From: Physcia stellaris
Lineage: Eukaryota; Ascomycota; Lecanoromycetes; Caliciales; Physciaceae
Reading direction: 5' to 3'
Assembly (NCBI GenBank): GCA_018902385.1
Contig: JABSSW010000077.1
Span: 83,262 to 147,261, forward strand
DNA length: 64,000 nt
The notes below the pieces were generated by a model that did no database searches, was not told where the DNA came from, and worked only from the letters and a program-made list of their open reading frames with translations. A program made the translations under genes and the position numbers. Shown here piece by piece: positions 226 to 61,207 of this stretch; position 1 is the first letter of the stretch, and each line of letters begins with the position of its first letter.

Positions 226-3221
226 TCAACGCCGCATAACCCGTTGCCGACTCAGCAACTGGCTAACCATAAAATGGCTCACATCCTCATCAGCCCAGTA
301 ACTCAAATGGCTCGCGATACTAGCAATGAGCGAAATATCAAACACGCCCTCCTGGATACTGAAATCCACCCTCCCGTTCCCGTTCAGGGCGCGCACTTTC
401 CCTTCTTCCCGCCGCGCCCGCTCGTCGGACTCGGCATCGAGCGGGTCGGAGCTCTGTTGCCGTTTCTGGAAGCCGGCGTAGAGGGTTTCGATTTCGCTGT
501 CTATGAGGGTTGGGGGGTGTTCGGCTGGTGTGTCGTCGCTTTTCGAGGCGCCATCTGGGGAATGGAGGGTTGATGATGAGGATGGGATACTGGCAGGTGC
601 GCCGCTGGAGGTCGGGGCGCGCAGCACCTGAGGGTTGGAGACGGATTGAGAGGAAGACAGCTGCCCATCGCCTGTGAGGCCCAGGCTGCGGTTTAGCAGA
701 CTGCTCGCTACGCCAGACGTAAAATTTGTCCAGAGTCCCGACACGCTCTGGCCCACTCGTGCGCCGATACCGGTGATGCCGGCGCCCGGGGCTCCGAAGA
801 TGCCTTTCTTGGTGTACGGAAGTGGCTGAGGTTTCAATGATGACATGGCTGGGGATATGAGCGGTTCGATACGGTAGGCGATGGGATCGGCGGGGTGGAA
901 GATATTGAAGAGTTGCTGGCACTTGGGTGATGAGACGGTGATGGAGAGGATCTCTTCGTCGTTGGCACTGGCGCCGTTGTTGGCTGCTGCGCCGAGAAAA
1001 GGGTCGTCGAGAGCGTCCGGATCCATTGGGCTTTGGGAGGCGGGAGCATTCGGAGAGCGGCCGGCAATGCGTCGCCCTTTGAGCATTTGGTAGAGACCAA
1101 GAGGCGAGCCAAGGCAGAAGAAGGATTCAACATCAAAGTTCAGAGCTAAATCCGGGGTGTGGTCCGATATTTGGGTACTGCCGCCTCGGCGGGAATGTCG
1201 TTTATTTCGCGATAGGCTTGGGGCTAACTTGAGAGGGCTTTGTTGGCGGCAGAGAATATCAAAGAGGATGGCTGAGCCGAGGGAGTGGCCTATCAGGCTG
1301 ACTTTTCCGTTGAACTTGGGGTTGCGCTGCATGAAGAGTTCGTAAATGCGGTTGCATTCGCGCTGGACGATGCCCGAGATGTGCTCCCTGTACGCAGATT
1401 GATAAAGCAATATATCCAATGCTAGGTCTGAGATGAGATTTCGTATGGCGGGCACCCCTTCAACAGTGATGTCTTCCAAGCTGGGATACTTCTCATCCTC
1501 GCCAAAGGCATCAGCATCGGTGAGATCCTGCTCCTTGCTGTTCTGCTTGAAGCTTTGCTTGGGGAAATCCAAAAGATGCCGCCACATTACAGGCAAGACT
1601 TGAACACGGCAATTCTTTGGTAGCTTCTCGACTTCGTTGTTGAGCGCTTGTAGGTCCGGCGAGTTGTCATATACGCTTTTCAGCGTCTTTCTCAGCACGT
1701 TCACATCATGGATGAAATTGATGCTCTCCAAGCGTAGGCCCAGCCTTTGTCCAATGCCATGCGTCACAAGAATGAGATGTTCGATCTCGCGACCTTGGTC
1801 ATCCCCGTCGGAGTCTCTGTAGTCTTTCCGAAACTGATCTTCATCCCGCTTGCGAGCCGCTTCTTCCTCCTTTGAAGGATCTTCGGGTTCTGGCGAAATG
1901 ATTAGAGATGACATCTGTCTTTCCAGTTTCAACAGCCTTGGCTCGGAGTCTGACTCTGCTGCCTCGGCTTCTCGCGTCGTAGCAGCTTCATCTGAGACTT
2001 TTGGTTCAGCTCCTCGATCTTTGGGGTCGGCCAGAGTAGGCTCAACATTGTTTGAACTCGACTCTGCTCCCACTTCCGATTTCTTTTCTTTACTCTTAAC
2101 AGCTTCGGTAAACCCGCGAACGACTTTCATCCCTCCCAGGTGACCGCCTCCAGCAAAGCGTTGATATACTGTGCTACTCATGCGAGACAAAAAGTCATCT
2201 GTTAGAAGCCATGCCACGGTAGCATCCTGATAGGTAACTACTGAGTTCATGTAATTACCGAATAGACGCTGCGTTTGGAGTTCAAACTTTGCAGTAATAT
2301 TAGGGCTAGTCGCTTCCTCTTTGTCCTTGTTGATATCCTCAGATGAAATGCTTCTCGTAGGTCGAGGCTTTGAATCAGGCCTCTGGTCTTGACGCCCTGG
2401 TGGATCCATCGATACCGGTCTCGATCTAGGTTTGTTGTCCGAAGAAGGCGGTGCTAGATTCTCGTATCGCCATGGTTTTATTTTCAGGTATCCTTCTTCC
2501 AGCTGAATTGCCAAGTTCTCGTCACATGGGCGGAGATTGGAACCTTCCTGGTGAAACCAACTGCCACGCCGTACATCGTATATGGGGCCCAGCCAGTATG
2601 TTGGTGCTAGTTCACGCTTCTCGACGTCTACATCGAACAAAAAGTCCTCGTTGACAGGCACCTTGATCTTTCCTCCTTTCTCCGTGCTTGTGGAGTCATT
2701 GATGCTGGTATTCTTCTTTGATCCAACATCCTCAAGACTGGTCTCCGAAAGCCTGGCGGTCATCTTTCCAATGTCTCCGCTGGATTGATCTACCTTGTCC
2801 GACTCGGCATCCTCGACTAGTCGCTGGAAAGCAGCCTCTATCGAGCGGGAATCCCTGGCTGAGAAGCCTGTGTACTTTTTAGGTAGAGGTAGAGGTTTGG
2901 CATCCTTGGAGGATTTATCTAGCGGTTGCGGCTTGCGCTTTGGAACCTACGAGCAGGTCAGCGCAAAGTTCACACAGTGCAGGTAGGCAATCTTACATCT
3001 ATTGCGTAAAACCATCTGATGTTGGACTTGGGGCAATCGGAAGGGTAGTCTTTGCGACTTAGACGGTGACGCGCCGTGATGGTATGATCGTCTCCCTTGG
3101 ATTTCTCCAGCGGTGCAGGCGTCGCCTTATCCTCCTTACTGCCATGGTCAGGCTTCGGGGTGTTACTCCTTGACGGCCAGGGAGAGATGGACTCTAGGAA
3201 GCTTTTCTGGGTAGCAGCCAT
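226..3221 (-). CDS. DDHD-domain phospholipase (PA-preferring phospholipase A1-like)
   Basis: Two exons, 3221-2997 and 2946-226, joined across a 50 bp GT-AG intron, give 981 aa. The start is the ATG at 3221; an earlier in-frame ATG at 3263 is possible. A lipase nucleophile elbow, GHSLGS, lies at about residues 628-633. The C-terminal part has the DDHD-type features HPADPIAYRIEPL (about 757-770) and a terminal Asp/His-rich stretch. Residues 1-150 and about 270-390 are charged and low-complexity. Known for the family: intracellular phospholipases A1 hydrolyse phosphatidic acid and related phospholipids at ER/Golgi or mitochondrial membranes; yeast Ddl1 is the fungal reference. No signal peptide is seen. 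The gene is divergent from the thioesterase at 3543 and shares its 321 bp promoter. The family call is firm; the substrate is inferred. Confidence 0.9.
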
Positions 3222-3542
3222 CTTACCTCCCCGGACAAACCGGAGGAGACTGAAAGGTGCCAACGTGAAAGTGTTGGGACGGACATCAATCAGGTGGGCA
3301 AGAAGTTGGTTGAGTGGAAAGTGACGCGAATCTTGAAATTGAGGTCATGCTCATGGCTTGGCAGACACGTGACAGGCACATGAAATCACATGACAGACAC
3401 ATGACATTTCGGGTCGAACCGTCCCTCACCTCCATCGACGGACAACTACTAGTAGTAAGTACAGTAGTAAGTGTTACTGTTACAACTCTCCACTTCTATT
3501 CGACCCCCATCTTACCTTACGTCACATCTCTCTAGTCTTGTA
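3222..3542. promoter_or_regulatory. Bidirectional promoter between lipase and thioesterase genes
   Basis: This 321 bp stretch separates two divergent starts (3221 minus, 3543 plus), so it must hold both promoters. It contains a cluster of CACRTGA motifs at 3366-3405, annotated separately, and a short AGTAGTAAGT-type repeat at about 3450-3472. I see no clear TATA box. Confidence 0.7.
3366..3405 (+). promoter_or_regulatory. Four evenly spaced CACRTGA (E-box-like) sites
   Basis: CACGTGAC at 3366 is followed by CACATGA at 3377, CACATGAC at 3387 and CACATGAC at 3398. The start-to-start spacing is 11, 10 and 11 bp, about one helical turn, so all four would face the same side of the DNA. CACRTG is the core of bHLH and bHLH-zip binding sites. 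That such a factor binds here is inference. Confidence 0.55.
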
Positions 3543-3986
3543 ATGGCGTCGACCAAACCCGACGAGTCTACCGAGCTGGCTCGTGTTCGCAGCTATTGGG
3601 CCGAGATGTGGCCAAACAGCCCAATCTACGAATTCCTTCTCAAAGACGTCGAGCTTGTCTCGGCCTCCAAGGGACTGGTCGTAGCTAAGCTAAAAGTCGA
3701 GCCAACACACATGAACTCGAAGGGTACATTACACGGTACAGTGTCAGCATGCATTACTGATGGGTTTGGTGGACTGGCCATTGCGTCTACTGGATCGAGT
3801 AATACTGGGCTCTCCACGGACATACACACCACCTACGTCTCCACTGCCAAGGTCGGAGATATCTTGGAGATCGAGGCGAAGTGCGGTAAAGTGGGAAGAA
3901 ATATTGCGTTCACAACAGTGGAGATCAGGCATGAGAATGGTGCTGTGGTCACGACTGGGACGCATACGAAATACATCAAGTCGTAA
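3543..3986 (+). CDS. Hot-dog fold thioesterase (4HBT / THEM2-PaaI-like)
   Basis: A single exon encodes 147 aa from the ATG at 3543; the frame is open further upstream to 3471, but MASTKP fits the family length. The segment HMNSKGTLHGTVSACITDGFG matches the hot-dog thioesterase core (N-S-K-G-T-L-H-G followed by the central Asp helix), and the C-terminal half supplies the beta strands (STAKVGDILEIEAKCGKVGRN). Family members hydrolyse acyl-CoA thioesters, usually as dimers or tetramers in cytosol or mitochondria. No obvious targeting peptide is seen. It shares a promoter with the DDHD phospholipase, which suggests, but does not prove, co-regulated lipid metabolism. Confidence 0.88.
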   Translation: MASTKPDESTELARVRSYWAEMWPNSPIYEFLLKDVELVSASKGLVVAKLKVEPTHMNSKGTLHGTVSACITDGFGGLAIASTGSSNTGLSTDIHTTYVSTAKVGDILEIEAKCGKVGRNIAFTTVEIRHENGAVVTTGTHTKYIKS

Positions 3987-53050: not shown

Positions 53051-53063
53051 TCATCTCTTGCGA
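53051..53063 (+). repeat. LINE target-site duplication, 5' copy
   Basis: TCATCTCTTGCGA, identical to 58947-58959. It keeps CpT dinucleotides that are almost absent inside the element. Confidence 0.9.
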
Positions 53064-54020
53064 GAAAAACACAATTTATGTTACAAATCGAATTTTTGAA
53101 ATAACTCAACAACGAAACGTGATATTGATTTGATTGACGCGTCATTCGATTCGTCGAATTTTTGCGCATCGATCAATGAACAATTGATAATAATGAAAAA
53201 AATTACATGATCGCAATTAAATCAAACGAACGAAAATGTTCACAAACAAAAAACAATGTTGTTGAAAAACATCAAAAAATGTCGAAAATTCGTTCGAACA
53301 AAAAAAAAATCATCATCAAAAATCATCGAAAATTGATTTACAATCGTCGTGACATATTTTGAAAACACACAATTTGCATTAATTCAAAAAAACATGATAA
53401 ACGCAATGAATAAAATGATTGTTCAATTCAACAAAAAACACGCGAAAATGAAAAAAAACAATGTCATGATTCGTCATGAAATCACAAAAATAATCATTTT
53501 TTTCAAATTTTTTTTTATTTTTACGATCAAGACGAAATTTCGCAATTGAATAATCGTCGTTGCGATTTTTTTAACGTTTAAAATTATCGCAAACAAAAAC
53601 ATCGAAATCATAATACGTTTAAACGATAACGAAAAAAAACAACAATTGAATCAATACGAAATTAAACGTATCGTCAATGAAATCAACACGTGTATTACGA
53701 AAAAAACATACAAATCAAAAATATTCGAACGATCAAAAAATTTTCGAATGATAATTTCGCGATACACGCGATAAACGCAAAAAAAACAAAAAAATTGCGA
53801 AACAACAATGCATGAACGACGATATTCGATAAAAAAACGAAAACGATCGTTTCGATTTATGCGATCATGATTAACGATATAAAAATCAAAAAATTCGATT
53901 TAAAAAGAACAAAAAATAAAAAAACGACGATGCGTAAAATTAAAAAAAAAAAAACGAAAATGTGAAAAAGTTAAAAAAATGAAAATTTTGTATTTGTTTT
54001 GAAAAAACAAATTCACGACA

Positions 54021-54823
54021 ATGCAACAATATCATATTTTGATTATTGAAATCATTATTTCAAAAATAAATAACAATATGTTGAACAACAACATCATGAT
54101 CGAAAAAAAACTGAAAATTTGTTCAATGTTTAACAAAACATACAAAATTATTCAATGTTATAAATGTTATTATCACGAACACAATACAATTCAATGCAAA
54201 AAAAAAACGATACGATTATTGCGCAAATGCGCATGTTACAAAAAAGAAAAAATGTGCAAAAAATTACAAAATCAAATGTTATGTATGTGAAAAAGCACAT
54301 AATTCATGAAAAAAAAATGCAAAAAAAAATAGAAAAAAATCGAAAAATTATGTATTAACGCTCGATTACGTCAGCGAAATTCGAAATTCAAAAACAACAA
54401 TACATCGTTGTCAACAAAATGATAACGATTTCGAAATCGATGAATACAATTCACGAAAATTCAAAAACGACAATCGTTGCGAAAAAATTCAATCAATTAA
54501 AAAAGTTACAACGACGAAACATCGAAAAATCACAAAAAAAAAAAATTTATTTAAACGAAATCAACAAACGCAAAAAAACGAACGCGCATGAATTTCACGT
54601 GAAAATGATTTTGTCGATCGAAACAATGATGTTATCGCAATTATTTTCAAATTCACAAAAATTTCGAAACAAAAAAGATGATAAATCGACGTTATCGATC
54701 AAAAAAAAAAACATCAATAATCAAAAAAATATAAAAATTCGAAAAAAAAAAAGTTTTCGTTCACGATTATCAAAACATTTTTATTTAACGTCACGAATCG
54801 AAATACGAAATTCAAAACAATGA
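54021..54823 (+). pseudogene. LINE ORF1 (gag-like) remnant with zinc knuckles
   Basis: At about 54153-54300 the translation reads CYKCYYHEHNTIQC, then KCACYKKEKMC, matching two or more CCHC knuckles (CX2CX4HX4C for the first). The following frame (54419-54823) is Lys-rich and belongs to the same ORF1. Stops interrupt it. In LINEs this protein binds the RNA as part of the RNP. Confidence 0.75.
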
Positions 54824-57800
54824 AAAAATGTTAAAAAACGACACATTATCGATATTACAATACAACGTCAACGATTCGAAAATTCAAATCATGATATCGT
54901 TGTTCGAAACAAAAAACATAAAAAAATTCGATATATTGATCATGCAAAAATCATGAAAAAATTCATTTTAATTTACGACAAATGACAAATTTTCGTAACA
55001 GTTCGAATTATTGTATATGTTCGATACAATTACGAAAATGTGCATGTTTGTCAACAAAAAAATAACGAAAATTGTATATTTTCACACGTTTCACAACAAA
55101 AATCTGATTTTATTAAAAATGCAAATCGAAAACAACAAAATTATCAACATTTATAACATGTATAATTTATACAAAAACAACGAGAATTTCAACGCGATAT
55201 TCAGTTTTAAAAACGCGATGCAAAAAAAAAATCAACGAAAAACACGTTATCGTAAAAAATTTTAATTTGCATCATTTCAATTGAAAAAATCACATGTGAA
55301 AACAAACGCGAACGTATATGAATTCATAATTACGATGAAAAAATATAAATTGAAAAAAATCACATCAATCGAATTAATTACATGAAATAAATATACGAAC
55401 GAAAACACAATTGATTTCACATACGCAATATCGTTGTTTCGAAACAACATAATCGAAATCGATATCGACGAAAACATGAACAATCATTCGAATTATCGTT
55501 CAATTAAAACGATATTCAATTTGCGAACAAGAACGATCGCGTCGAAAATTACAAAAATTTGAACGAAAACAAATATCGATATATTACGCGAAAAATTGCA
55601 AACGAAAATCACGAATAATGAAACGATCATTTTCAACAACGACACGCACAACAATCAAACAAAAAAAATCGACGATCAAATTAAAAAATTGATAAAAATC
55701 ATTCAAACAATTATCGAAACAATCATTTCGATTAACAAATCGAATATTTACGCGAAATTAAAATTTATCGAAAAATGCAAACAAACATCGAAAACGATCA
55801 AATCGATCAAAAAAAAATATCAAAACAACGACAAAATCGAAAATCTGTGAAAATCGTACAAAAAAATGAAAAATCGTTTGAATCACGTAATTTTTAAAAT
55901 CATGAAAACACAATAAAAAAAAAAATCGAAAAAAAATGTGATACATTAAACAACATGTAAAAAACATGCAAATAAACAAAAAATAAAATTTCGAAAAAAA
56001 TTTGTTTATCGACATTACACGATCATTCATTTATGTTGTCAAAAATCGATTCAATCAAAAAAACATTCATATTGTTGAAAAAGTTTTTTTCGTCGTTTAC
56101 GATTGTTTTAATCGACATACAAAAAATCACATACAATTAAAATTTGAAATTGAAAAACATACAATTTCACGAAATGACGAAAATTATAATCAAACAAATT
56201 TCGAAAATTATAATCAAACAAATTTCGAACAAAATTTCAAACGACGACGACATAATCAATAAAATTTAAAAATGAATAAATAATATCATTGCATCACATT
56301 TGCAACGAATATACAACGTTAATTTAAACGAAAATTATTATTCGAAACATTTTCGAAAATCGATCACGATCGCATTGCGTAAATCAAACAAAAAAATTTA
56401 TTCATTGACGATTTCGTACAAATCAATTGTTTTATTCAATATTATAAACAAGTTCATGAAATTCATATTGATCAAACGAATCAATTTTTTGACGAAAAAA
56501 CACGATTTGTTGTCACGCACACATTTCGAAATCAAAAAATCGTGTTTACAAAACACGCATTACATTACATGATGAAACGAATACATTCGACATGAAACAA
56601 AAAATTGATAATCGTGATCATGCTTTTCGACGTGATGAACGTTTTCGACAATATAACGCGTTTAAAATTGTTACATAATTTCAAAATGAAACGTTTAAAC
56701 GAGAAACTGATACGATATATTGATTTTTTTTGTTTAATAAAAAAACGATATTGAAAACGAACGAATACGATATCGAATGATTCGAAATATTCATAAAAAT
56801 TTCACAAAATTCATCGATGTCATCGATTTTTTTTTTTTTTTTACAACGCATTTCTATTGAAAATTTTGAAAAAAAAATATTTCAACGAACGAATTCGTCG
56901 ACGATGTAGAAATGTTGACGAAAAATCACATTTTCGAAAAATGCAACGATATCATAATCAAAACACACGAAAAAATCTGCGTATCGTGAACATTGAAGCA
57001 TGAAATGAAATTTGCATTTTTCAAATATCAGCTCATTTATTTCAATCGAAGAAAAAAAACAAACGTCACAAAATCGATATTATTTTCTGAATTCAATCAA
57101 AGAGTCAAAACAAACAAAAAGATGAAATATCTGAACGTCATAATGAACGAGAAACTCAACTGAAAAACACAAATTAATCAAAACAAAACGAAAACATTGA
57201 AATCAATAAAAACATTACGCAATTTTGACGACATTACATAAAATGTTAAATTTTCGAAAATAAAACAAATAATGCAAACGATTTTTATTTCACAATTCAT
57301 ATACGCATGTTCGATATAATACATGTCGACAAAAAAAAATCATAACAAAAATAAAATCAAAAAATTAACGAATGTTCAATATCAAATCGAAAAAATCATA
57401 ACGAAAACATACAAAATTATTTCGAAAAAAACGTTTAACATCGAAATCAATTCAATATTTATGCATTTACGTTTAAATAAATTCATCAACGCGTTCGCAA
57501 TGAAATTAATAACAAATTCGACATACGATACGATTATACGCGATCGTTTCATCAAAAAATCGAAAAACGTTAATTTATTGAAAAAATTAATGAATAAATT
57601 CGAAAAAAAAACGAACATCAAAACACACGATATGAAAAAAATTTTATTTTTTGTCGTATCGTCGTGATAAAAATCGTCAATTACACGTATCATGAAAAAC
57701 AAAAAAAAAATCGAAAAATATCACAAAATGCAATTAACAACGAATTCGATCAATTACATATACACAAACGAAAACGACATTAACGACAAAATGAATGCAA

Positions 57801-58554
57801 CAACGATATTTTCAAAAACGAAATTTATTACAACGAAAACGTATTTGAAATTCATTACGTTATACACGATTTATTTTGCTGAATTATATAATATCGTTTT
57901 AACAATGAATATGCGATTGTATTCGTTTTTGAAATTTGCAAAAAAATCGAAATTCGTCATATGCATCGACAATCAAACAACAATTTAAACGATGCACAAT
58001 TCAAAAATCAATTTCAATCAATATTTGATGAAATGAATAATCTGATTGATCAACGAATTGCGAAACAAATATATAAAAATAAAATTACATTGAATTTCGA
58101 TTTACATCGATATCGAAAATAACGAACAAACAAATATTGCGATCAAACAAATTATAAATTAAAAATTGAAAAAACGAAATAAAAAAAAATAAACATTAAT
58201 CACAAAACACAACAAACGAATATACAAATGTTGAAAAACGCAATCAAAATCGTAATTGATAAATCGATTAAACAACAATGATGTCAAAAATGAAAAAATT
58301 GCAATAAAAAAAAAAATTTATACAAATTTACATCGAAATCGAATACGACAATAATGCGATTACACGAAAAATTCATTAAAAAATTCAATGTCATAACAAT
58401 ACAATTTCGCACGATCAAAATAAAATTAAAAACGTTTTTATACAACAAAAAACAAATCGAAAATTTCATGTGTTTATGCATGTGTAACAAACAGACGATC
58501 AAACACGTGTTTTTCGAATGCAAAAAATTGAAAAAATTTCGAAAAAATTTATGA
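54824..58554 (+). pseudogene. LINE ORF2 (endonuclease, reverse transcriptase, RNase H) remnant
   Basis: The endonuclease begins with ILQYNVNDSK at about 54860. The reverse transcriptase fingers/palm are visible at 56398-56570 and its catalytic box FVDD at about 56897-56908. RNase H runs from about 57755 to 57990 (IYTNENDIND, AELYNIVL, CIDNQTTI). The terminal zinc finger CLCMC...TIKHVFFEC is at about 58467-58525. Stops, mainly TGA in place of TGG, and frame changes break the whole reading frame, so no active enzyme can be made. Confidence 0.82.
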
Positions 58555-58922
58555 ATTGACGAAATTAAAAAAACGAAATGAAAAAAAATAAAATTGATGA
58601 ACGTATTGATCAATTCGATCAATTTGACAAAAACGACAAAATTTATCGAAAAATTCGAATTCATTGATTATTTACGAGTTTCAATTACGAACGACGAAAA
58701 ATAAAAATTGCAAAAAAAATGCATTGAATTGAAAATTTTCGTACAAAATGAAAATGAGAAAAAATCATGAAAATAAAAATGTTTGAAATGATTTGCTCGA
58801 ATAAAAAAACAAAACATCAAAAGCAAATAATTTTGTATAAAGTCAAAAATTTTCTAAAAAATGATTGACTCGATTGTTTTTAATCGCATAACGAATTCTT
58901 AAAATCGATTTCGAATGCTTAA

Positions 58923-58946
58923 TGAATCAATCAATCAATCAATCAA
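58923..58946 (+). repeat. (AATC)n tail of the LINE
   Basis: About five tandem AATC units lie directly before the 3' target-site copy. Short tandem tails at this place are usual for Tad/I-type LINEs. Confidence 0.8.
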
Positions 58947-58959
58947 TCATCTCTTGCGA
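58947..58959 (+). repeat. LINE target-site duplication, 3' copy
   Basis: TCATCTCTTGCGA, identical to 53051-53063. Confidence 0.9.
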
Positions 58960-61207
58960 TGAAATAAACTTACTCTCATTCAAAAGACTCATAATGTCTC
59001 ACCATTCAGGATCCAAAGTGGCAACGCATGTGGCACGAGTCCCGCCTCCCGTACCAAAGCTCGAATCGCGTCTTCCTCGCGATCTCTACGTGGCGATGAT
59101 GTCGCGTCGTGATAAAAGGTATCTGAACAAACCCATACTACGAGGTCGGCGATACTGAAACGCATACAGTGTGAGCCGTTCTTCTTTCGCATCGATCTAG
59201 ATGCAGAAAATTCATGTTTTTCTCGAGACACAATACGAATCGCATTGTTCATCTTTCAGTTTCCAGACAGTTCTTTTCATCTAGTCGTCTTACATCAATC
59301 TCATCTCGTCATCGAACAATCATGTTCATTCCTTCGCGACATCATCTTTCTTTTACTCGTTCCGCTTCGCTTCATTCGCGTTGACGATGTATTTGATATC
59401 GTCTTCCCAGCCGTTAGGCTCGAAACGTCCATGTGAAATCTGAGACAAAATCGAATGACAGAATCGCATTTGATGACTGCTGGATATGAAGAGACGAATT
59501 GAATATCATACTTTCAGTACGAAGGAAAATTGCTTTCTCGAGCGCTCTTGGTATTGTGAAGGCTGAGTATCGGGCGTGTTGGATGAAAGGACTGATGAGA
59601 GAAACGAGTCGAAAGAGTTGATGAGTCTGATGGGATATATGACATGAATGTATGAATTTGAAAGGAAAATGTGAGTGGATTTAGCTGTTACGATAGTGAA
59701 AGACATGAATTCAGCTTTGCCGATTGAGAATGAGGAAATTGCGAGATCACGCGACTAATTTTGGAGTAAGGCATCGCATACTTGCTCTAATCATTAGTCA
59801 CTGCTTGAACAATTTCGTCGATGACTTAATTTTGGATAAATCGAAGATACGTCATTTTAAAAGACAGTATCTTTGTAATCAAATATGATGAAACTTAACG
59901 TCGACACGTCGTGTACTTCTAAGACTTCTACTAGTTTCAGCTGATCATCACAGATGTTGAACTTTAGATTCACATCATTGTCGCGACTATTCAGATCAGA
60001 TTCGGTCAGTGCATTCTTCTCTGTCTATTGTTGATGAGCGATCTCATCGTGTAATGAAGAAAATGTCTACTTCATTGATTAAATTATTCATCTTTCGAAC
60101 ACACTGTCTGCGCTAAGCTAGATCTGAGAAAGTCCGAAAGTGATCTTGAAGACTATGACTCTTTGAATTGAATCAATCTTATTCGAGATTGAAAAAAAGT
60201 AGAATGAACTAATGCAATCACATAGATCATGACAAACTAAGGCTTCGTCTATTCGTTTTCAAATTCTTGTAACAGTTATGTCGTGATACGTTCTGAGCAG
60301 ATTAGTGGTGAGAAGTACTTGCTTTAGAAACAAAATTGCTCATTGTTAGACACTACTGTTGCACGGATATAATCTTGAAAAAGATCAAATTTCTACTCTA
60401 GGATGATTTCTTATTGTCTTGGCAGATTGCATCAATATTTAACATTTTCAATTTCATCAATACGATTGGTAGCGATTTTCTTGAGAATCTCATACTCTGA
60501 CTTCACTATGATCGATAAGTATTTATATATAGACAGGCTCGACAGGATGATTGAAACTTACGGCCGGAAGAGACAACGTTCTAGACCACTGAAGCGGCTC
60601 TAGATGCATCTGACAAGCACCTCGCATCCAACCTGCTTAATTTCGCGTCTTCGAACCCAATGGGAAAGGGGGAAAGGGGAGGCCTGGATATCAAAAGCAC
60701 GCTTTGACTTATCGTGGACGCGATGGCTTGCATGATACGCCTCGTCACAACAGCTCCTGCATTAGCTGATACATCCTTGAGCCTTGTGCAACCCTTCAGC
60801 CTTGTGATGGACAGATCCGAAGGGGTTCATATAGCTCTCGCTGGTCCCATCTCCACGAATGATTGTTACGAACCTTCCTGGACTCCTTTTCTTTTCATTT
60901 ACACGTTTACACCTAGCCTCAATACTAATTCCTGCTTTCTTAGAGAAATCATGGCGACATCCAGCATTCCCTTCACGCCGCTATCGCAAGCACACCAATA
61001 TTCATATTCTTCAACTCTCGCTTCTCTAAACATTCATTTTTCTAATGATTTCGACTCTCAATTTTTTCGAATCAATCATATCCCGCGCAGCCGGAGACTT
61101 TCTCTGCTCCAAATGCACCAGGAGTTCCTCCATTACGGCCGTCTGCAATACAGAATCCAAGTCAACTACAACATTGTGGCCTTTCGCCCGAGAACAGCAC
61201 ATTGTCA
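58960..61207. other. AT-rich subtelomeric spacer, end part open upstream of next gene
   Basis: No gene is supported between 58960 and about 61040; small ORFs on both strands at 58989-59252 overlap and lack domains. From about 61045 to 61207 the frame of the next gene is open and Pro/Ser-rich (SAPNAPGVPPLRPSAIQ), so its true N-terminus may lie here, possibly after a splice at CGCGCAG (about 61090). Confidence 0.4.

Follow-up and report, generated by a model that had tools for sequence, protein, structure and literature searches.

The window analysed here, a 64,000-nucleotide stretch of the genome of the lichen fungus Physcia stellaris (contig JABSSW010000077.1), contains a long interspersed nuclear element (LINE) at positions 53064-58946 that has lost nearly all cytosines standing before a pyrimidine (CpY), on both strands. 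The pattern represents a repeat mutation like repeat-induced point mutation (RIP) with an inverted preference for the 3′ neighbour. It is very probably the product of a RIP-type, genome-wide, repeat-directed C-to-T mutator with the preference CpC > CpT >> CpA, CpG, of which the LINE is one victim. A preliminary description of the window had proposed a repeat-directed mutator with a different dinucleotide preference, and alignments in several transposable element (TE) families support that proposal.

Dinucleotide composition of the LINE

The element contains no CpC and no GpG, with CpT and ApG reduced to 21 and 30 occurrences, while CpA (474), TpG (259) and CpG (345) are abundant and CpG reaches 3.81 times its expected count. 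In 300 mononucleotide shuffles of the element, the mean counts were 120 for CpC, 69 for GpG, 225 for CpT, 306 for ApG and 91 for CpG, and the real counts never approached the shuffle minima of 95, 48, 195 and 264 for CpC, GpG, CpT and ApG. The near loss of these four dinucleotides and the plentiful CpA, both claimed in the preliminary description, are thus borne out by the counts, and CpA is not depleted in the manner of CpT and CpC. Its base-by-base check of 53221-53340, in which every C preceded a purine and every G followed C or T, could be reproduced (C before A 12 times and before G 6 times; G after C 6 times and after T 6 times). The G+C content is 0.25 in the element, 0.49 to its left and 0.47 to its right, and no 1-kb window of 1-53000 has an element-like composition; in none of them does the CpC share of C fall below 0.13.

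The same composition is found elsewhere in the genome. Nine of 12 arbitrary 1-kb genome spots were ordinary and three were AT-rich and low in G+C, and the signature was present in all three of the latter. In the DNA fetched for this study, with loci mostly picked as TEs, the element-like picture recurs in all 250-base classes with less than 30% G+C, and TpA/ApT rises in none of the low-G+C bins.

A preference for CpA is usual in RIP, though not universal, and is known from Neurospora crassa and many Pezizomycotina. Both CpA-based RIP indices put the element on the non-RIP side of their thresholds, with TpA/ApT at 0.45 against 0.89 and (CpA+TpG)/(ApC+GpT) at 1.32 against 1.03 (PMC10998396; this and the other papers cited by PMC number are drawn upon in excerpt). 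The indices therefore give a false negative on the element, and surveys built on them may miss such lineages. We consider it very improbable that classical CpA-type RIP, or an artefact of composition or assembly, produced this pattern. RIP fungi typically combine repeats low in G+C with a RID gene, but the indices lie on the wrong side and TpA does not rise in any low-G+C bin. An artefact is further opposed by the context rule, which holds against little-mutated references in three TE families, and by the published assembly (184 scaffolds totalling 46.57 Mb, with an ascospore culture as the source), which joined Nanopore and Illumina reads (PMC7513301).

Direction and context of change

The 3′ half of the LINE has at least 42 matches in the P. 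stellaris assembly searched (43.97 Mb, 147 contigs), some of which are fragments of one copy; the query was 56000-58500, and 40 of 53 candidates were scored. The copies mostly have 23-30% G+C. In one less mutated copy, L037, the RVT_1 frame is still open, and its enlarged locus, L046, was aligned at full length (5.9 kb) with a second fresh copy, L047. The scored sites hold 514 C/T or G/A differences and 0 transversions. When sites are classed by their context in the copy retaining C, the two directions gave changes at 140/180 and 52/83 CpC sites (summed 192/263), 199/623 and 118/551 CpT sites (317/1174), 4/823 and 1/820 CpA sites (5/1643), and 0/734 and 0/734 CpG sites. Summed by class, 509 of 1437 CpY sites differ against 5 of 3111 sites before a purine (CpR), a 220-fold ratio of rates. 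The CpA preference of RIP is therefore absent from this pair, and C-to-T change before a pyrimidine, the simplest reading offered in the preliminary description, accounts for 509 of the 514 differences.

The main target is CpC, followed by CpT, with CpA and CpG weakly mutated in older copies. The fresh pair gives a CpC to CpT hazard ratio of 3.9-4.1, and five further comparisons give 1.7-2.6. By strand, the CpC changes from L046 to L047 number 41/64 on the plus and 99/116 on the minus strand, rates that are similar and unequal.

The 5′ neighbour has little influence on mutation. From L037 to copy L036, CpC changed in 15/18 cases after A, 13/16 after C, 20/28 after G and 17/21 after T, and CpT in 16/64, 6/20, 21/82 and 34/97 cases, respectively, while cytosines between T and a purine barely changed at all (T[C]A 1/145, T[C]G 0/142). 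These counts bear on ultraviolet damage at dipyrimidines, which might be imagined in a sun-exposed lichen thallus, both CpC and CpT being dipyrimidines. The same is true of TpC, but the T[C]A and T[C]G counts stand against the 15/18 of A[C]C, and ultraviolet damage would not respect the ends of repeats. We rejected ultraviolet mutagenesis, which the T[C]R counts contradict, and give it next to no chance.

Older copies and other transposable element families

The context rule persists in more heavily mutated copies. Aligned to L046, the window copy has changed at 177/180 CpC, 560/612 CpT, 113/820 CpA and 45/733 CpG sites, so that its changes are concentrated at CpC and CpT, as the preliminary description had predicted for an alignment to less mutated copies. 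Across 28 other copies compared with L037, the C-to-T fractions are.95 for CpC,.88 for CpT,.11 for CpA and.04 for CpG, and G-to-A changes mirror them.

A second LINE family has 41 matches, from which three mutated copies (L054, L055 and L056) were fetched and compared with the unmutated copy L003. CpC changed in.79-.92 of cases, CpT in.46-.77, CpA in.037-.045 and CpG in.023-.025; for L056 the counts are 391/424, 292/381, 17/379 and 9/395. Two unmutated copies, L002 and L003, differ at 13/379 CpA (.034) and 12/395 CpG (.030) sites, so the CpA and CpG change of the mutated copies is about the level between unmutated ones. In a long terminal repeat (LTR) element, comparison of L001 with L007 gave 433/441 CpC, 395/457 CpT, 27/440 CpA and 16/409 CpG; the fractions against L007 and L008 are.98/.97,.86/.86,.06/.11 and.04/.03. 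The tabulation of C-to-T change by 3′ neighbour that the preliminary description had called for is thus led by CpY in two LINE families and one LTR element, and its claim that both strands are affected agrees with the G-to-A changes, which mirror C-to-T in the alignments of all three families.

A DNA-transposon locus, L063, has CpC and GpG at 0-1% of its C contexts, judged by composition alone, and a second such locus, L062, has an open frame and lacks the signature composition. Alignment of L062 with L063, and of L004 with L005, was attempted and none was obtained. The comparisons of L001 with L005 and L006 and of L002 with L006 yielded 331, 274 and 60 divergent aligned bases, in which no context bias was clear, and were set aside.

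The reading frames carry the same mark. Among 150 reverse transcriptase matches, 140 hold stops (250 TGA, 33 TAA and 3 TAG) and the remaining 10 are free of them. A predominance of TGA is the outcome to be expected from GpG-to-GpA change in Trp codons with CpA, TpG and CpG spared, in agreement with the earlier observation that Trp codons had become TGA and not TAG.

Boundaries of the mutated DNA

Of 30 LINE loci taken for a test of the right flank, 24 contain the 3′ end of the element and the other six do not; the DNA 20-820 bp outside was assessed. The CpY share of this flank is normal (>0.40) in 21 of the 24 copies. The remaining three are L018 (0.16), which lies within mutated DNA, and two borderline cases, the window copy (L013, 0.38) and L027 (0.40). 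Pooled over the 21 copies with normal flanks, the first 50 bp outside are normal (0.48), and the pooled profile of these copies reveals no leakage into the flanks. L046 and L047 have normal DNA on both sides. Unique flanking DNA is thus mostly spared, as in RIP.

A search with the LINE 3′ end gave 40 matches, five short ones of which were fetched. Two of these, L059 (265 bp) and L061 (115 bp), are truncated copies in ordinary DNA and are unmutated. Together, the flanks and the short copies resemble RIP.

The other three short matches (L057, L058 and L060) are LINE-related 3′ ends that continue into other DNA with strong mutation; they may be chimeric elements with the LINE tail in common.

Candidate enzymes

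A PF00145 profile search of the genome gave four matches in three genes (L043, L044 and L045). The search for RID/DIM-2-type methyltransferases suggested in the preliminary description accordingly found one RID-type, one DmtA-type and one DIM-2-type gene. L044 combines PF00145 with DUF7893, and its best relative in the PDB is 9bap, a 1456-residue DNA (cytosine-5-)-methyltransferase; we take L044 to be DIM-2. The L045 model equals P0121 at 100% over residues 620-935 and matches the P. stellaris protein G7Y79_00005g016670 at 100% over the region compared. In a tree of 179 of 220 sequences, drawn as a selection and with several weakly supported nodes, L045 clusters with the long homologues of Lecanoromycetes, and L043 (positions 1901-3559, G000:C6) groups with Eurotiomycete DmtA, apart from short Lecanoromycete paralogues. 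Among named relatives, the one closest to L043 comes from Heterodermia (72% identity); another protein is 96% identical over 74%.

The two class-I (RID/DmtA) methyltransferase genes, L043 and L045, are apparently intact and are candidate mutators. Both proteins retain the catalytic Pro-Pro-Cys-Gln (PPCQ). After it, five of nine aligned sequences have AHT..GKDDEMN or a close variant. The other four (L043, the Heterodermia relative, P0028 and P0092) each deviate from it differently. The divergent stretch of L043 may offer a lead to the enzyme. By analogy with known RIP genetics, the mutator would be a class-I enzyme. It is conceivable, though we hold it only tentatively, that this lichen-fungus lineage swapped its mutator code, such that a RID-class enzyme, perhaps the DmtA-like L043, converts C where a pyrimidine follows and hardly where a purine does. 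If this is true, CpA-based indices would class such genomes as free of RIP. The P. stellaris mutator and classical RIP would form a natural specificity pair for asking what determines which cytosine a RID-class protein targets and whether the reaction is carried out by RID itself, the purified protein being reported to have no detectable methyltransferase activity (PMC13297926).

The presence of a DIM-2-like gene raises another account, in which heterochromatin methylation of the DIM-2 type is followed by slow deamination of 5-methylcytosine, without a dedicated mutator. Neurospora DIM-2 methylates mostly non-CG sites. A preference of DIM-2 for CpT (PMC13297926) would also suit this account, but here CpC is fastest, CpG is least affected and most flanks are clean. 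In addition, the 514 transitions with 0 transversions over the 5.9 kb of L046 and L047 fit pulses better than a clock. We regard methylation followed by slow deamination as unlikely.

Retroelements elsewhere are known to undergo C-to-T hypermutation, and one could envisage that here, too, a single-strand deaminase of the AID/APOBEC type attacks the cDNA while retrotransposition takes place. The genome has eight PF00383 matches, of which the frames of six were inspected, and strand rates differ somewhat in single copies, as in the CpC counts from L046 to L047. Such editing was expected to depend on the 5′ base or to be restricted to one strand, and neither was seen; both strands are heavily mutated, and a DNA-transposon locus shares the composition. 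SNAD4 (PF18750) has no match in the genome, in a search that left other AID/APOBEC Pfam families outside its scope. AID/APOBEC-type editing was therefore rejected as a highly improbable source of the pattern.

One of the PF00383 matches, L048 (G000:C64:178666-179121), has four TGA stops in frame in DNA of normal composition, which probably reflect introns or a pseudogene.

Weight of evidence for a repeat-directed mutator

Alignment establishes the context rule, on both strands, in two LINE families and one LTR element; composition extends it to the DNA-transposon locus, and mostly normal flanks and two escaping short copies accompany it. In the RIP-type mutator that we favour, repeated DNA above some minimum length would be recognised along its own length, and C on both strands of the repeats would be turned into T, CpC first and CpT second, with CpA and CpG nearly spared and unique flanks mostly left alone. 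The process would act premeiotically by homology pairing, and one of the two class-I homologues would carry the changed preference.

Several points weigh against this reading. L019 and L022, both among the 21 copies with normal flanks, have little CpY over the first 200 and 100 bp beyond the element, respectively, before returning to normal. The short matches L057, L058 and L060 are mutated and lie within longer mutated stretches. No local clustering of same-strand mutations, a hallmark of RIP, was found in the fresh copies L046 and L047, with the elements trimmed of flanks. In older copies, 11-14% of CpA and 4-6% of CpG have changed, which exceeds the rate of other changes; CpR is thus not wholly immune, and purine contexts are mutated weakly or late. 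Finally, we infer the repeat sensing and the timing, and we likewise infer that the changed preference belongs to the enzyme.

Relation to known systems

RIP in N. crassa and the process in P. stellaris share C-to-T change on both strands of repeats, largely spared unique DNA and a RID-family gene. They may also share a length threshold, which in N. crassa is at least 400 bp at 80% identity (PMC3017866); in P. stellaris the 265- and 115-bp copies escape and three other short matches are mutated. The two differ in their order of targets, which is CpA > CpT > CpG > CpC in N. crassa, with CpC last in T. reesei too (PMC5496416), and CpC > CpT >> CpA > CpG in P. stellaris. Alignments of N. crassa Tad1 have more CpT than CpA changes (PMC2621366), a pattern that, in the excerpt, is neither CpC-led nor CpA-poor.

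CpT is among the favoured sites in Botrytis cinerea, Sclerotinia sclerotiorum, Magnaporthe oryzae and Anisogramma anomala (PMC4352252, PMC10998396), and another survey describes CpT-to-TpT change as dominant, by alignment, in RIP-capable control fungi (PMC7882544). The first three of these species also have a class-I DNA methyltransferase. In PMC4352252 and PMC10998396, however, CpT is accompanied by CpA, whereas in P. stellaris CpA is nearly spared and CpC leads; the term CpC occurs in neither paper. CpA, CpT and CpG signatures have been described across ten fungal genomes, and Microbotryum and other Basidiomycota share with P. stellaris a non-CpA preference in TE mutation, but their target is CpG (as TpCpG), which is the best protected context in P. 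stellaris (PMC4352252).

Among lichen fungi, Cladonia rangiformis has sharp-bordered, AT-rich TE compartments and homologues of RID and DIM-2 (PMC12542154). P. stellaris resembles it in the AT-rich TE compartments and in both homologues, but the TE DNA of C. rangiformis peaks at about 16% G+C, lower than the LINE copies here. RIP has also been reported, via sliding-window software, for Cladonia metacorallifera and Gyalolechia flavorubescens (PMC7882544). The excerpts of these reports (PMC12542154, PMC7882544) contain no dinucleotide spectrum for the three species, and 'repeat-induced' and 'point mutation' are absent from the P. stellaris genome note (PMC7513301). No CpC-led spectrum was found in the literature searched, in the excerpts at hand and with Clutterbuck 2011, a survey of filamentous ascomycetes, outside its scope.

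According to a 2025 survey of 1,239 fungal genomes, in the part available, the results strongly suggest a CpA preference shared by RIP-like defences (PMC12543289). P. stellaris is a clean counter-example. The implication is that evolution can alter, and even invert, the 3′-neighbour preference of RIP without changing its other behaviour.

Layout of the element

The extent of the LINE given in the preliminary description is confirmed by 13-bp target-site duplications that directly border it on both sides (Table 1). L046 and L047 each have target-site duplications of their own, different from those of the window copy, and all three share a 3′ tail of the (TCAA)n type.

Table 1. Features of the LINE and its insertion site in the window
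Feature	Coordinates	Strand	Basis
LINE (non-LTR retrotransposon), CpY-mutated C-to-T on both strands	53064..58946	+	Dinucleotide counts, RVT_1 in less mutated copy, alignment to L046/L047
Target-site duplication, left, TCATCTCTTGCGA	53051..53063	+	Sequence reading
Target-site duplication, right, TCATCTCTTGCGA	58947..58959	+	Sequence reading
LINE 3′ tail, five TCAA units	58927..58946	+	Sequence; like tails in L046, L047

To the right of the LINE, 59200-60500 contains few CpC and GpG, with normal CpT and ApG and a G+C content mostly of 0.30-0.44; it may be an older repeat or a lightly mutated one, or may reflect local leakage.

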